Assembly (NCBI GenBank): GCA_947381435.1 | Contig: CANCVE010000003.1 | Span: forward strand, 1-64,000 | Direction: 5' to 3' | Length of the DNA stretch: 64,000 nucleotides | From: Chitinophagaceae bacterium | GTDB taxonomy: Bacteria > Bacteroidota > Bacteroidia > Chitinophagales > Chitinophagaceae | Shown: positions 11,257-63,936 of the stretch, one piece after another | Numbering within the stretch: position 1 is the first letter of the stretch | How the letters are laid out: each line of letters opens with the position of its first letter | Position numbers and translations under genes: made by a program | The notes under the pieces: generated by a model | What the model saw: only the letters and a program-made list of their open reading frames with translations | Told to the model about the DNA's origin: nothing | Databases searched by the model: none

Positions 11257-11319
11257 GTTTTATGCAATCACGTCTTGATACTAATACTAACCACTAATAA
11301 CTAACCACTAATAACTAGC

Positions 11320-12346: not shown

Positions 12347-12500
12347 CATCTTTATACCAACGATGACTAGATAACTCGTTAGGATGTCATCTTTATACCA
12401 ACGATGACTAGATAACTTGTTAGGACGTCATCTTTTTACCAACGGAGACTAGATAACTTGTTAGGATGACATCTTTATACCAAGGATGACTAGATAACTT
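12347..12500. repeat. 41-bp tandem array, about 4 units (array L)
   Basis: catctttataccaacgatgactagataactcgttaggatgt-type units starting at 12347, 12388, 12429 and 12470. Confidence 0.95.
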
Positions 12501-12732
12501 AAAATCGTATAATCTTTTTGAGGAAGACTGCTACAGGGATTTGATTAATTGCTACTATGGTTGGTGGCGGTGGAAAAGAAAGGGTTAGTATATAGAAAAA
12601 GGCCAGCATGCAAGTAATTATCGTTCATTAGCAACAAGGCAATTAAATGCAACCATTAGTTGCATGGAGGGGTAAAATAGTTTTTGGGGAAGCACTATTC
12701 GTTGATGTTGGTTGACCAATCCTATAAGGGGC
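12501..12732 (-). other. Conserved leader-like non-coding block of the duplicated cassette (copy 1)
   Basis: Reverse complement matches 62349-62580 with roughly a dozen mismatches over about 235 nt. Confidence 0.9.
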
Positions 12733-12832
12733 AAAGCTTAGTGAGACAATAAGCCTAATATTCGGGATGGGGTTTACTAATATATTTGTAAAGAGATTTA
12801 AATTAATTAACCTCTTTATTGAAATTATAATT

Positions 12833-13687
12833 ATGCCAACCTTCTCAGAAAGAATAGGAGTAACGCCCATTAAATCAATCATACAAATTGATTCTATTAG
12901 TAGAGATTTAGAAAATTCATTATGGAATGCTTTGATTATTTATTACTGGGATAAAATGGATGAATCGATATTACGAAGTAGAAATGAAATTCGAACACTG
13001 TATTATAATGTTTGGGCTCATTATTTTAAAAATAAATTGGATGAAATCTATCATTCAAAACCAAATTTTATAAGCATGATTAAGAAATATTTCTTTACAT
13101 GTGAATGGTATGAGAAGTATAATCTCATCGAATTTGTTAAGAATAGTTATCATCCATTGGATACTCGGGATTCCACAAACAAAGAATACATTGATTACTG
13201 TAACATAGTTTTTGAACGTGAACTATCCGGATATAGATTTATAGATGGCACATTGGGACCAATAATAACACCAATTGAAATTGAATCTATTGAAGATGCT
13301 TTGACTATTGATGATATATACAAACCTGTAAAAACTCATTTTGGCAGGGCTTTACAATTTTTATCTGATAAGACAAATCCTGATTATAGAAACTCCATTA
13401 AAGAATCAATAAGTGGGGTAGAGTCTTTCTGTTCTATTTTGACAAAAAATCCAAAAGCTACTCTTGGGCAGGCTCTTAAAGTTATCGAAGAAGAACATTC
13501 TTTGCATACAGCTTTAAAAAGCTCGTTCAATAGTTTGTATGGCTACGCTAGCGATGGTGATGGAATAAGACATCATTTAAAATTTGAAGAAAACTCAAAA
13601 CAAGAAGATGCTATCTATATGTTGGTTTCATGTAGTGCTTTTATAAATTATCTAATCAAGAAAGCAAGTACAACCGCGATCAAGTAG
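12833..13687 (+). CDS. Abortive-infection-like (AbiJ N-terminal-domain / HEPN-type) protein
   Basis: MPTFSERIGVTPIKSIIQIDSISRDLENSLWNALI N-terminus; C-terminal RNSIKESISGVESFCS..LGQALKVIEE..LYGYASDGDGIRHHL. Confidence 0.65.
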   Translation: MPTFSERIGVTPIKSIIQIDSISRDLENSLWNALIIYYWDKMDESILRSRNEIRTLYYNVWAHYFKNKLDEIYHSKPNFISMIKKYFFTCEWYEKYNLIEFVKNSYHPLDTRDSTNKEYIDYCNIVFERELSGYRFIDGTLGPIITPIEIESIEDALTIDDIYKPVKTHFGRALQFLSDKTNPDYRNSIKESISGVESFCSILTKNPKATLGQALKVIEEEHSLHTALKSSFNSLYGYASDGDGIRHHLKFEENSKQEDAIYMLVSCSAFINYLIKKASTTAIK

Positions 13688-27162: not shown

Positions 27163-27746
27163 CTAAAACAAGCTTGCCTGTTCTAGCTTTTTTACCTGAT
27201 TTAGCAATGGAAATCGTTCAAACACCCTATACCCTTTGCTGTCTTCATTTCGTTTAAGAAGTATTAATTCATTCACCATAAACGACGCATTAAAATGGGT
27301 GTTGCTATACTCCAACCACCCCTTTTCGTATTGCCAAGGCAGTAGTTTATGGGCGATGGATATAATATGATCCGTAATAAAATGTGGCTTGGTTTGGGCA
27401 TTTGGTTTAATATACTCCTGCACTTGCTTCAATTCTTTTATCAAATCCATTATCTGATTGGTTGCTTGTACTTTCAGGTAAATGGTATGCGATGGAAGAC
27501 TACCAAAATCGTCCAATACAATCCTGAAAACTTATTTACCATGGCAATATTGCGCAGCCTGTTTACAAAAGGCCGCTCTGCTAGCTCGTACTAGCTAAAT
27601 TTTATGAGTGTTATCTGTGGTTTTAAATGCAATGCTTGCTCACATTGATAGGCTTCTGAAAACCCCTTTTTTATTGCGATAATTTTCTCTATCAAGTCTT
27701 CATGAGGCTGGATAACTAATAGATATTCATTTATTGATTCGTTCAT
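27163..27746 (-). pseudogene. 2H phosphoesterase / 2'-5' RNA ligase-like pseudogene
   Basis: Reconstructed MNESINEYLLVIQPHEDL..LKPQITLIKFS*YELAERPFVNRLRNIAMVNKF / FRIVLDDFGSLPSHTIYLKVQ..; one TAG stop and one frameshift; paralogous to 28070-28687. Confidence 0.75.
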
Positions 27747-27816
27747 AAATTTTATTTTAACTGAATGATTGTGCTTAAAAGGCGACAGTTTACGTTCAAT
27801 TCACCATTTCGTTAGG

Positions 27817-27984
27817 TGTAATAACTCTTGTATTACATGTAATTAAGCCACTTCTGGGTGTAATGAAACTTCTATTAGATGTAATGTAGCCGCTTCTAGG
27901 TGTAATGAAACTTCTATTAGATGTAATGCAGCCGCTTGTGGGTGTAATGAAGCTTGTATTACATGTAATGAAACCGCTTCTGGG
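27817..27984. repeat. 21-bp tandem array, 8 units
   Basis: Each unit starts TGTAAT; 14-nt remainders alternate between two types (gaaacttctattaga / gtagccgcttctagg). Confidence 0.95.
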
Positions 27985-28069
27985 TGTAATATAAATAATA
28001 CCAACCCTTTTTTTACCTGAATTAATCCAAAAGATTTTTATCCTTTTTATCAAAAAAGTTTTCATAGGC

Positions 28070-28687
28070 TCAACAGTTGAATAATACATTTTCAGTTGAC
28101 GATAACTGAAAGCTTGTTAGTTTTTTACACGCATCAAACTGATGCTGCCTACGCAATAAAACCAACTCTTTCATCTCGAATGACCCACTGAATGTTTTTT
28201 GGGAATAATCCATTATAGCTCTTTCAAAAACAGAAAGAGACAATTTCCTAGCTATGATAAGTTGTGGCTTGGAAACCAAATGCATTGGCGGACAATCATT
28301 GCTACACACATAATGATTGATGGATTGGAGTGCATTGGCTAACTGTTTGAAAGGCTGCTGCTGCTGCACCCTTACATATATGGTGTGGGGAGGAAAGCCG
28401 CCGTAATTATTAAGCAATACAGAAAACCTTGGCAGCGTACCAATGGCACGGTTCATCCATCGGATAATGGTTTCTTCCATAGCCTTCTTCGCTAAAAAGT
28501 TGGCAATAGTAATGTACGGCTTGGTTTTTATAGAAACCCCTTCACCATACCTATCAAAAAAATATTGCTTTTCTTCCACCATCTGTTTATATACTTCATT
28601 GCTAGGGGTTGTCACCAGTAAATACTCAAACAAGTATCCATATTCATTTTGTAAACTTCTGCCGTGTGGTTGTGCTATTAAGTCCAT
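28070..28687 (-). CDS. 2H phosphoesterase / 2'-5' RNA ligase-like protein with degenerate HxT motifs
   Basis: TKPYITIANF and SKPQLIIARKL; FPPHTIYVRVQ; paralogous to the adjacent pseudogene. Confidence 0.7.
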   Translation of the reverse strand: MDLIAQPHGRSLQNEYGYLFEYLLVTTPSNEVYKQMVEEKQYFFDRYGEGVSIKTKPYITIANFLAKKAMEETIIRWMNRAIGTLPRFSVLLNNYGGFPPHTIYVRVQQQQPFKQLANALQSINHYVCSNDCPPMHLVSKPQLIIARKLSLSVFERAIMDYSQKTFSGSFEMKELVLLRRQHQFDACKKLTSFQLSSTENVLFNC

Positions 28688-36748: not shown

Positions 36749-36890
36749 TTGTTAGTGGTTAGTTATAAGTTGTTAGTCTGCAATTTGAATTGTATTTTAA
36801 GATAAAAAAAGAAGGTTTTTCTTTTCTATTCGATAAAATGAAGAACTTTCTTTTATGACTAACCACTAATAACTAATCACTAACAACTAG
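36749..36890. repeat. Inverted-repeat element made of TTAGTGGTTAGTTATTAG-type words
   Basis: agttgttagtggttagttataagttgttagt ... actaaccactaataactaatcactaacaacta; overlaps the stop codon of 36887-37507. Confidence 0.75.
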
Positions 36891-37507
36891 TTTGCTGCTC
36901 TTGTTATTGGTGCGCAATAGTTTCTTCTTCTATCCGATCCACGAGCTGCCATTTTAAATACATAAGGAACAAAACTTGGCAAACCTTCTATTTCTATTGA
37001 ATGACTGGTTGATGTTTCAGAAATCCACACACTGGTTGCTGTAGCCGGAGAAGCGGTGTATAAAACTTCATAAAAGCCTGCTTTTGGCATTGCATTGCAA
37101 CTACACAACACTTTATTACTCGCTTCTTGCGTAATTACTTTAAAATTACTTACTACTGCAAATACACCAATTCTAGCTTTAGAAGCGGCAGTGTGCATAC
37201 CTGTAGACAATATTTTAGTTTCATCACCACCACTTGTAAGTTGCACATACGCACCCAATACGTGCATTTGCCCTTCTATAACAGCTCTTTTATCATTCTT
37301 ATCAGAAGTGTCTGTTGGTGTTCCATCTTTAGCCTTTGCCACAGCAGCCTGAAATAATATACGCTCAGCAGTTATTGATGTAACGGTAGGCGATGGTGTT
37401 GGAAAGCTTGAGTTGGGTGATAGATGCGTCTCAATACTTTGCACTTCAGTTATTAATCCATCGTCAGTGTAAACGTCTCTTGAATAATCAACCAAAACTT
37501 GTGACAT
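36887..37507 (-). CDS. Hypothetical protein, possibly FN3-like C-terminus
   Basis: 206-aa ORF; C-terminal half ..EVLYTASPATATSVWISETSTSHSIEIEGLPSFVPYVFKMAARGSD.. resembles FN3-type segments; 21-nt array upstream. Confidence 0.65.
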   Translation of the reverse strand: MSQVLVDYSRDVYTDDGLITEVQSIETHLSPNSSFPTPSPTVTSITAERILFQAAVAKAKDGTPTDTSDKNDKRAVIEGQMHVLGAYVQLTSGGDETKILSTGMHTAASKARIGVFAVVSNFKVITQEASNKVLCSCNAMPKAGFYEVLYTASPATATSVWISETSTSHSIEIEGLPSFVPYVFKMAARGSDRRRNYCAPITRAAN

Positions 37508-37638
37508 GACATTAATGATTTAATAAATGAAAAATAATCGGTTGAAAGTAATCTTATTGTAACTAGCAATACTAATTAGTTTATTAAAACAGGCATTTCA
37601 GACGTAAAATGCTTATAATAATTACCTATATTATCAAT

Positions 37639-37806
37639 ATCTGTATCAAGATTATCATAATCGGTATACCGTTAGCAATAATCTGTATAAGGATTGCCAG
37701 TATCTGTATATAGATGGTGACTATCTGTATACAGATGATGGCAATCGGTTGAAAGATGTTGATGATATTGATACCGATTATCGCCATCGGTATGAAGATA
37801 TCTATA
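37639..37806. repeat. 21-bp tandem array, 8 units
   Basis: Exact 21-nt spacing: atctgtatcaagattatcata / atcggtataccgttagcaata / atctgtataaggattgccagt / atctgtatatagatggtgact / atctgtatacagatgatggca / atcggttgaaagatgttgatg / atattgataccgattatcgcc / atcggtatgaagatatctata. Confidence 0.92.
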
Positions 37807-50216: not shown

Positions 50217-50418
50217 CGTCCAAAAGCAACCATATTTCGTCCAAGAGTAAGCGAAAAACGTCCAAGAGTAAGGAAAAAACGTCCAAGAGTAAGCCTTTTT
50301 CACGTGAAAAAAGCTTACTCTTGGACGAAAATCTCTTGGTTTAGGACGTTTTTTCCTTACTCTTGGACGTTTTTCGCTTACTCTCGGACGTTTTCTCCTC
50401 GCTCTTGGACGTAATTTC
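50217..50418. repeat. Mirrored 21-bp array: 4 forward and 5 inverted units around a CACGTG centre
   Basis: Forward units start at 50217, 50238, 50259, 50280 (cgtccaagagtaag+7 nt); inverted units start at 50314, 50335, 50356, 50377, 50398 (cttactcttggacg+7 nt). Confidence 0.95.
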
Positions 50419-60734: not shown

Positions 60735-60881
60735 TTAAGGTTTTAACTTTACTATTTTGTTGTTCTGAATTACAACTATTTCACTATTCTTTTGCTTCTT
60801 AAATTCAACCATTTTTTGGTATGCCTTTTCCAAGCCAAGCAATATTTTATTTTTATGTTCAATTTTTGCCTCTGTTGTCAT
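60735..60881 (-). CDS. Small protein (48 aa) overlapping the 3' end of the zeta-like gene
   Basis: Own translation: MTTEAKIEHKNKILLGLEKAYQKMVEFKKQKNSEIVVIQNNKIVKLKP*; ATG overlaps the upstream ORF by 23 nt. Confidence 0.5.
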   Translation of the reverse strand: MTTEAKIEHKNKILLGLEKAYQKMVEFKKQKNSEIVVIQNNKIVKLKP

Positions 60882-61494
60882 AATAGTATTTTAATTCAGC
60901 GAATTTAAGCGTATTAATAATCATTAGTTCTTTTGATATTATTTTCTCAGCAATGAGAATGTGTTTTCCTTCCGAATTATCAAACACCAAAACTTGGTCT
61001 ATAATGTCAAGATAAATATCAAATAGATTATTGATTCCATTATAAAACCTTCTTTCAATAATAGCTGCTTCAATGTTATGCCCACCTTCAGCTACACGTG
61101 TTTTAACTCGTTCCTTTGCTAACTCAGTATTTTTTAACCAAAAGAAAAGCAATGTTGTTTCATACCCGTTCATTTTGGCATCCAATATTTTTGGTTTATA
61201 GCTTTTAGTTGCCAATGTAGTCTCAAAGGCAAAACTTTTCTTGGTAGTTAAAAGTTCTTCAATTCTTTTCAGCATTATCCTTCCTGCTTCAAATGCCACT
61301 TTTTCGGGTTGAAATGGAGAAAGCCCTTTTGCAATTTCATCTGCATTTACAAATTCCTTACACCCTAAAATTTCGGGTAGGATAGTAAAAGATGCCGTTG
61401 TTTTTCCAGCACCATTACAACCAGCAATTATGTAAAGATTCTTTTCTGCCATAACTGCAAATTTATACGCAAAGGGCTTATTTATTTTACCCAA
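60859..61494 (-). CDS. Zeta-toxin-like P-loop kinase
   Basis: LYIIAGCNGAGKTTASFTILPEILGCKEFVNADEIAKGLSPFQPEKVAFEAGRIML..KSFAFETTLA; real start probably MAEKNLYI. Confidence 0.8.
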   Translation of the reverse strand: MGKINKPFAYKFAVMAEKNLYIIAGCNGAGKTTASFTILPEILGCKEFVNADEIAKGLSPFQPEKVAFEAGRIMLKRIEELLTTKKSFAFETTLATKSYKPKILDAKMNGYETTLLFFWLKNTELAKERVKTRVAEGGHNIEAAIIERRFYNGINNLFDIYLDIIDQVLVFDNSEGKHILIAEKIISKELMIINTLKFAELKYYYDNRGKN

Positions 61495-62348: not shown

Positions 62349-62580
62349 GCCCCTTATAGGATTGGTCAACCAACATCAACGAATAGTGCCTCCCAAAAAA
62401 CTATTTTACCCCTCCATGCAACTAATGGTTACATTTAATTGCCTTGTTGCTAATGAACGATAATTACTTGCACGCAGGCCTTTTTCTATATACAAACCCT
62501 TTTATTTCCACCGCCCCCAACCATAGAGGCAATTAATCAAATCCCTGTAGCAGTCTTCCTCAAAAAGATTATACGATTAT
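62349..62580 (+). other. Conserved leader-like non-coding block of the duplicated cassette (copy 2)
   Basis: Near-identical to the reverse complement of 12501-12732. Confidence 0.9.
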
Positions 62581-62908
62581 AAGTTATCTAGTCAAGCTAG
62601 GTTTAAAACAGTCATCCTAACAAGTTATCTAGTCTGGGAGAAGTTGAAACAGACGTCCTAACGAGTTATCTAGTCCGGGAGAAGTTGAAACAGTCATCCT
62701 AACAAGTTATTTAGTCTGGGAGAATATCAAACAGTCATCCTAACGAGTTATCTAGTCTGGGAGAAGTTGAAACAGACGTCCTAACAAGCTATATAGTCCG
62801 GGAGAAGTTGAAACAGACGTCCTAACAAGTTATATAGTCTGGGAGAATATCAAACAGACGTCCTAACAAGTTATATAGTCCGGGAGAATATCAAACAGAC
62901 TATCTAAA
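62581..62908. repeat. 41-bp tandem array, 8 units (array R)
   Basis: aagttatctagtctgggagaagttgaaacagacgtcctaac-type units, exactly 41 nt apart, from 62581 to the last unit at 62868. Confidence 0.97.
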
Positions 62909-62970
62909 GGGTTTTGGCAATGTTTAATCAGTCAAATCATTCATTTTAATCACACTTTAAACTCAAATTT

Positions 62971-63936
62971 ATGACACATAATTTTTTTGATGCTTTTTAT
63001 AGCGACCTTTTTGACAAGCATAACATTATTGACAGTAGGTATCAGGTGTTTTTACGCAACTTCATTGCATCGCTCGTTGCCAACAATCCTGCAGGCGTTT
63101 TTGATGCTCAGATAGCGAACCTTACATCTGTTTACACCACCTATTTTGGTAATTTTGAAACTAAAAGTGTAAACATTGCCGAACGAGTGGCTAAAACTAG
63201 CAGCCTTGATATAGTGACTGCGCTTTTTGCAAACACCGTGAGGAGTAAATATAACTCTATTGCAGCCGTGTATCCTGTTGGAGATTCTGTTTACATCGAG
63301 TTTTTTCCACATGGAATGACAGAGTTTAGCCGTCTTACACGAGAAAATGTTCAAAGCGTTAGCCATCGGATAGCCACAAAAGCTACAGAGTATATGTCTA
63401 CCTTGGGCGGTGCGCCATTTGCAGCCATTTTTACAACGTTGGAAACAAATATTACGGCCGCCATCGGTGCACAGAACACAAAAAAGTCTGTAGTAAAAGC
63501 CATCACAGGTACCGTGATAAATAATAGAGAACCTGTGGAAACTGCCACCATGAAAGCCATGTATGCCGTGGGTTTGGAGTTTTGGCCAAATCAGGTTGCC
63601 TGCCGTAGCTACTACGATTTTAGTTTGTTGTTTGGTGTAAACACGCATCCAAGTGTAGTGAAAACTGGTATTGTAAACGCTAATGCCATCGCACTTTGTG
63701 TGGATGCGGGTATTATTGCTACCTCTGTTTTTACCTTGAAGAATAAATCAGATTTCCCGGTTACTTTCTTTGCAACGCACACGCTAAACGGTGCAATGGT
63801 TGGATTGCCGATAGTGGTACTGCCTCATCATGATACGGTAATTGCGTTTACAGAATTTAATGCACCCGATATGCTTTTTTTGTATGTGAAAAACGAAACC
63901 GACTATGCCGGCAACTGGGAAGTGAAGGTGGACTAA
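62971..63936 (+). CDS. Conserved protein of unknown function, copy 2 of the duplicated cassette
   Basis: Near-identical to 11320-12285; differences concentrate at the N-terminus and near the C-terminus. Confidence 0.85.
   Translation: MTHNFFDAFYSDLFDKHNIIDSRYQVFLRNFIASLVANNPAGVFDAQIANLTSVYTTYFGNFETKSVNIAERVAKTSSLDIVTALFANTVRSKYNSIAAVYPVGDSVYIEFFPHGMTEFSRLTRENVQSVSHRIATKATEYMSTLGGAPFAAIFTTLETNITAAIGAQNTKKSVVKAITGTVINNREPVETATMKAMYAVGLEFWPNQVACRSYYDFSLLFGVNTHPSVVKTGIVNANAIALCVDAGIIATSVFTLKNKSDFPVTFFATHTLNGAMVGLPIVVLPHHDTVIAFTEFNAPDMLFLYVKNETDYAGNWEVKVD

Follow-up and report, generated by a model that had tools for sequence, protein, structure and literature searches.

A tandem array with a period of 41, 42 or 21 nt lies upstream of an orphan gene family in 81 of the 87 homologues analysed, which come from Chitinophagaceae and other families of Bacteroidia, and this period is retained even between relatives whose array units are unrelated in sequence. 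The layout, a conserved leader followed by an array and a gene for a protein of 321 aa, was recognised in a window of 64,000 nt (the whole stretch of DNA that was analysed) from the genome of a lake bacterium of Chitinophagaceae. Its existence and recurrence were confirmed, and the literature, to the extent that it was searched, contains no description of it. As the sequence of the unit changes freely while its length stays at 41 or 42 nt, about four turns of the helix, the arrays point to an undescribed DNA-level element of control or packing.

Layout of the cassettes and the orphan protein

The window holds two copies, R and L, each composed of a leader, a 41-nt array, a gap of 61-62 nt and a 321-aa ORF (Table 1). 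The initial annotation, made from the letters of this DNA, had described both copies in this order and on opposite strands, and its description was confirmed from the sequence. The eight units of R, which it called exact, are exact in length and inexact in sequence, as are those of L, since the unit identity calculated by Tandem Repeats Finder (TRF) is 88% in R and 90% in L (array scores 415 and 259, respectively). As annotated, the unit comprises a half that is common to R and L, TCCTAAC[AG]AGTTATCTAGTC, and a locus-specific half. The pattern of the shared half, with at most three mismatches, occurs at 16 places in 4.9 Mb, of which 15 are within the arrays of R, L and a third copy, M, and the reversed control pattern occurs at none, which excludes a chance origin. 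A match to the shared half in contig C28 lies inside an ORF and was discarded as fortuitous; the same contig carries a degraded cassette of the second orphan family (see below) with the same layout. Copy M, with a leader and six units, is located outside the window on the same contig as R and L (C3:82426-82910), and its ORF is lost save for the last few codons. The R and L leaders differ by 11 mismatches (about a dozen by the first count). The first, leader-proximal unit of R is a different variant, AAGCTAGGTTTAAAACAG, which is near to the ordinary unit of the homologous array L034 of another species. A coding function of the array was rejected, in agreement with the initial annotation, because 41 is not a multiple of three.

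Table 1. Positions of the cassettes and of further arrays of the same class in the window
Feature	Coordinates	Strand	Basis
R leader, non-coding, conserved	62349..62580	+	94% identity to L over 193 nt; 68-80% to leaders of three other species
Leader core CTGTAGC.GTCTTCC.C.AAAAGATTAT in R	62545-62572	+	sequence
R array, eight 41-nt units	62581..62908	+	TRF period 41, 88% matches; lag-41 match 0.91, z 28.8
R gap, 62 nt, A/T-rich, ahead of start codon	62909..62970	+	sequence
R orphan protein P0001, 321 aa, helical N part and beta-sandwich C part	62971..63936	+	ORF; no Pfam/NCBIfam match; AF2
L orphan protein P0002, 321 aa	11320..12285	-	93% identical to P0001
L gap, 61 nt	12346-12286	-	sequence
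L array, about 3.8 units of 41 nt	12347..12500	-	TRF; lag-41 match 0.85, z 33.8
L leader, left end truncated inside an inverted repeat kept by R and M	12501..12732	-	sequence comparison
21/42-nt array, same class, upstream of second orphan family	37630..37736	-	TRF; lag 21, z 14.7
P0004, 206-aa FN3-like orphan protein, multi-copy family	36887..37507	-	ORF/family comparison
Stand-alone 21/42-nt array, same class	27815..27990	.	TRF
Short 21-nt array, same class	50344..50412	.	TRF

Searches of Pfam, NCBIfam, PADLOC, PHROGs and the sequences of PDB gave no informative match to the 321-aa family. The only match to defence models is a weak one of 36 residues, no homologous PDB chain was found below E 0.25, and the phage, plasmid and viral collections contained no relatives. 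The AlphaFold (AF2) model of P0001 is of moderate quality (mean pLDDT 72, pTM 0.38), and its Foldseek matches concern the C part only, which resembles jelly-roll or cupin-like folds, e.g., PirA and the subunits of Bacillus endospore appendages (E about 6e-4). The family is mildly acidic (median pI 5.9), and thus the orphan protein itself is unlikely to be a DNA binder.

The genome of a second species (G003) carries both L-type and R-type arrays, so these variants predate the split of the species. The L cassette is syntenic in G003, and the gene of an AbiJ_NTD4 protein (PADLOC candidate PDC-S32; 12767-13687, + strand), which in the window is placed head-to-head with the L leader, is absent at the syntenic site; this fits vertical inheritance with duplication and decay, and not recent mobility. 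A Zeta-toxin-like AAA protein is encoded at 60859-61494 (- strand), some 850 nt ahead of the R leader.

Association of arrays with the gene family and retention of the period

Homologues were sought in 100 relatives and in order-wide and class-wide samples, which overlap in the source genome and in some others, and were found in 16/101, 26/399 and 25/395 genomes, respectively. The source genome itself contains seven matches to the 321-aa protein; two more distant homologues encoded there are preceded by 41-nt arrays of unrelated sequence, and a homologue of 20% identity by a 42-nt array. For the 87 homologues with at least 250 nt of upstream sequence, 700 nt were scanned for the lag of best self-match between 14 and 70 nt, each of these 57 lags being treated alike. 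The scan was significant in 83, with the best lag of 42 in 51 cases, 41 in 28, 21 in two and another value in two, i.e., 21, 41 or 42 in 81 of the 83. Among control genes of the source genome a lag of 21, 41 or 42 was found in 35 of 262, and the Fisher p of about 2e-43 for this comparison serves only as a rough guide, because of the non-independence among homologues and because the single genome that supplied the controls has many arrays of its own. The arrays have a median length of 5.4 units (maximum 11.4) and end a median of 96 nt ahead of the start codon. The array rule extends beyond one locus and far beyond the source genome. Inspection of homologues for upstream arrays and of leaders for conservation was the means by which the initial annotation had proposed to challenge its module, and it yielded the 81 arrays and a leader conserved in other genomes. 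The functional pairing of array and protein supposed there stands as an association and falls as an exclusive one: similar arrays precede a second orphan family and stand alone in intergenic regions.

The leaders of the R group (L001, L002, L034, L035 and L036) align at 68-94% (z 11 to 86). Compared with the other units of the group, those of L035 and L036 score no differently from shuffled sequences, yet the period is 41 in every array of the group. In the pair L001-L035, for instance, the leader identity is 68%, the protein identity 69% and the p value of the unit comparison 0.63, with period 41 in both. Two further subfamilies follow this pattern in part, some pairs sharing the unit sequence and others not. 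The impression that the array diverges faster than its surroundings was borne out, leaders and proteins being conserved where the units are unrelated. In 13 genomes of the genus, nine occurrences of the leader core were found, of which eight precede a 41-nt array and one a degraded array. Within arrays, a homogenised interior and a degenerate leader-proximal unit are seen, and units of 42 nt keep a sub-period of 21 nt (excess match 0.15, t 4.4). At two other loci, L083 and L108:239-421, a common leader is followed by different arrays, and one 21-nt unit is common to L083 and L104:12130-12350.

The period, 41 or 42, follows the protein tree: with the period as a label on a tree of 83 proteins, 9 changes are needed as compared with 22.7 after shuffling (0/500 shuffles as low), and all 13 members of the P0001 clade have period 41. 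Plain inheritance of unit length could be the source of part of this clustering, but it does not explain the near-absence of lengths other than 41, 42 and 21 under sequence turnover.

Genome-wide arrays and the symmetry of their units

A TRF census of a 464-kb sample of the source genome, about 10% of it, revealed 35 arrays with the smallest period of 21 (19 arrays), 22 (1), 41 (6) or 42 nt (9), and few other intergenic periods. From these 464 kb, with about 7 arrays per 100 kb, a total of some 350 per genome was extrapolated. The density of arrays is 7.1 per 100 kb in the sampled genomes of the genus and 2.0 per 100 kb in other genera with the family, the latter including one array known from the homologue L128; no array was found in 264 kb of genomes where the family was not found. 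A known orphan gene, or the remnant of one, lies next to about nine of the 35 arrays in the census (M included), and the others are near ordinary genes. One array of the window precedes the gene of P0004, whose family is apparently unrelated to the 321-aa family and has arrays of 21, 42, 63 or 41 nt at 21 of 27 loci.

Several single loci deserve mention. Two 2'-5' RNA ligase-like ORFs (27163-27516 and 28070-28687, - strand) flank the stand-alone array of the window. No known orphan gene adjoins the 41-nt arrays L090:12441-12649 and L097:8597-8805, which precede a PorV/TraF-like gene and a transposase-like fragment. The near-perfect palindrome ATTATTCGAGTCCGAATAATC is the unit of a 21-nt array, L246:1768-2061, found in a genome from another family. 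Tandem repeats of TAACTGA-like heptamers follow the stop codons of orphan genes (window 11280-11317 and 36858-36889) and of many others.

The units are enriched in dyad symmetry, the best dyad score being 6.02 as compared with 4.70 in shuffled units (replicate range 4.48-4.97). In 19% of cases, a distance of 21 nt separates the two best dyad centres, 13-fold more often than the expected 1.4%; some of this spacing at half a unit is inherent in every symmetric repeat. Perfect inverted repeats exceed those of shuffled units at spacings of 0 (11 vs. 2.1), 2 (11 vs. 1.6) and 4 nt (8 vs. 1.5). Dyads are individually significant in only 32% of the family arrays, and unit copies within arrays lack the compensatory changes that would be expected under selection for dyads. 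G-U-compatible mismatches are distributed evenly between the strands (6 vs. 6). The centre spacings of 0, 2 and 4 nt, together with the absence of a G-U strand bias and of compensatory changes, favour palindromes of double-stranded DNA over RNA stem-loops. Conserved RNA structure in the arrays was rejected, as copies differ without compensatory changes. The leader core of the R group can form a hairpin with almost invariant pairs, and no covariation was found in the leader. A search of Rfam 15 at the gathering score detected only a tRNA in the window and no match to the arrays. Intrinsic curvature, as predicted with a wedge model, was dismissed as a selected property, its mean z of only 0.35-0.63 being barely above that of shuffled sequences. 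The Bacteroidota -7 promoter motif TANNTTTG is too rare around the arrays to locate a promoter.

Possible function and relation to known systems

Tentatively, and with somewhat less than even confidence, we interpret the array as a helically phased scaffold of double-stranded DNA for a dimeric binder, which would serve as an upstream control or silencing element of the orphan gene. Two-fold symmetric sites would be spaced by about 21 bp, i.e., two helical turns, usually within a double unit of 41-42 bp, and a dimeric DNA-binding protein encoded elsewhere in the genome would occupy them side by side along the same face of the helix. Placed between the conserved leader and the start codon of the orphan gene, such a complex could control or silence it. 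The sequence of the unit would turn over fast through homogenisation by unequal crossing-over or conversion, and the period and symmetry would be kept because both set the geometry of the complex. What we observe is that arrays and gene family go together, that the period is constrained while the sequence turns over, that dyads are enriched and that arrays are spread over the genome; protein binding, cooperativity and a regulatory role are what we infer. Against the scaffold speak the 41-bp unit, which, with 10.5 bp per turn, misses four full turns by 0.1 turn, the many arrays near ordinary genes with no known orphan nearby, the mildly acidic orphan protein, the modest share of arrays with significant dyads (32%), the lack of compensatory changes and the barely raised curvature. 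A broader version is possible and, in our opinion, doubtful: many Bacteroidia would have a genome-wide system of sequence-free, helix-phased palindromic arrays with one trans-acting dimeric reader, which would organise or silence fast-evolving orphan families in the manner of chromatin satellites, through recognition of geometry rather than of a fixed sequence.

The main rivals of the scaffold are a satellite with a length ruler and an RNA ladder. The former, which we consider rather unlikely, assumes that functionless arrays are produced and spread by an amplification mechanism whose inherent ruler measures about 21 bp, the gene family being just a preferred neighbour. The presence of same-period arrays near ordinary genes throughout the genome speaks for it, the homogenised interior and degenerate leader-proximal unit resemble satellite evolution, and deletions associated with intergenic tandem repeats, described in some lake bacterioplankton genomes (PMC9426551), can be counted on the same side. 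However, it has to contend with the association with one family across many families of Bacteroidia (81/87 vs. 35/262), with the conserved leaders and enriched dyads, and with the same arrays in the P0004 family. If the leader and array were instead transcribed, they could form a 5' untranslated ladder of hairpins of about 21 nt, which would control the orphan mRNA or be processed to small RNAs. The end of the array at a median of 96 nt ahead of the start codon, the enriched inverted repeats, some with 4-nt loops, and the potential hairpin in the leader core of the R group are consistent with such an RNA. Palindromes with centres of 0-2 nt are strongly enriched, though, the G-U strand bias and covariation in copies and leader are absent, the window arrays have no Rfam match, and hairpins give no reason for a period of exactly 41 or 42, which makes the ladder unlikely.

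It is quite improbable that the leader, array and ORF together constitute a mobile element in which the array is the end used for recombination or replication. Mobility would agree with the presence of three copies in a single contig, with genomes of the genus that hold up to 10-11 matches of a family, with the remnants from which the ORF is deleted and with the inverted repeat at the left side of R and M; however, no transposase or integrase was seen in the module, it has no relatives in phage, plasmid and viral collections, the L cassette occupies a syntenic place in another species, and the inverted repeat is not a clean end, since the R-M homology continues upstream of it. Of the "mobile or recurrent module" of the initial annotation, the recurrence was upheld and the mobility was not. 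Even less credible, and very improbable, is the idea that the 321-aa protein reads guides from the array in the manner of CRISPR or TIGR systems. As in CRISPR arrays, a conserved leader is followed by a regular, variable array and then by a protein gene, and the layout had initially been called CRISPR-like. In the mechanistic sense this name has to be abandoned: the arrays are without spacers, because of which the CRISPR identity was rejected, and their units are homogenised and 88-90% alike across all 41 nt (TRF). CRISPR arrays keep the newest unit by the leader, whereas the leader-proximal unit of R is an old variant shared with an array of another species. Neither the orphan proteins nor the few ORFs scanned on their flanks gave a Cas match, and the defence-model and PDB searches gave nothing beyond the weak match described above. 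TIGR-Tas systems are defined by a Tas protein with a Nop domain and an array with paired spacers; here, the orphan has no Pfam match, its N part has no Foldseek match to the Nop fold (in a weak model), and spacers are lacking.

We found no earlier description of such arrays in the literature searched, mostly open-access articles. Homology searches are blind to a non-coding element in which period and symmetry persist and the sequence does not, and this may be why the arrays have escaped description. Should the proposed scaffold prove correct, bacteria would possess a DNA element that is recognised through its geometry and is tied to large orphan families in freshwater and other Bacteroidia.

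Plasmid iterons (bound by RepA) and par centromeres (parC, bound by ParR) are direct repeats of about 20-22 bp located by a gene and bound cooperatively. They share with our arrays, which have periods of 21, 41, 42 and 63, the tandem arrangement near whole helical turns, but here the units are unrelated between loci and the arrays, by extrapolation, probably number hundreds per chromosome. The adjacent orphan has no Rep/Par match, and most other neighbours look, by eye, like ordinary genes. REP/BIME elements are defined together with a RAYT transposase. They are dispersed copies of one sequence family, in contrast to the arrays studied here, which have their own unit at each locus, in tandem and with a fixed period; common to both are the many palindromic intergenic repeats per genome, as described for REP/BIME (PMC3733652, PMC12306157). 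Heptamer TAACTGA repeats of Beggiatoaceae, Cyanobacteria and Bacteroidetes (PMC4679880) are likewise intergenic and tandem, occur in some Bacteroidetes, and have similar counterparts after stop codons here; they consist, however, of a single 7-nt motif and not of a 41-42-nt unit, and no gene family has an array of them before each member. The cyanobacterial LTRR repeats (PMC2408588) were set aside as a parallel on account of their resemblance to CRISPR repeats. With satellites and VNTR minisatellites the arrays share the concerted evolution of homogenised units and the variable copy number. They differ from these in a period that is not free but locked to 21, 41 or 42 across a bacterial class, in the conserved leader and in the one gene family downstream.
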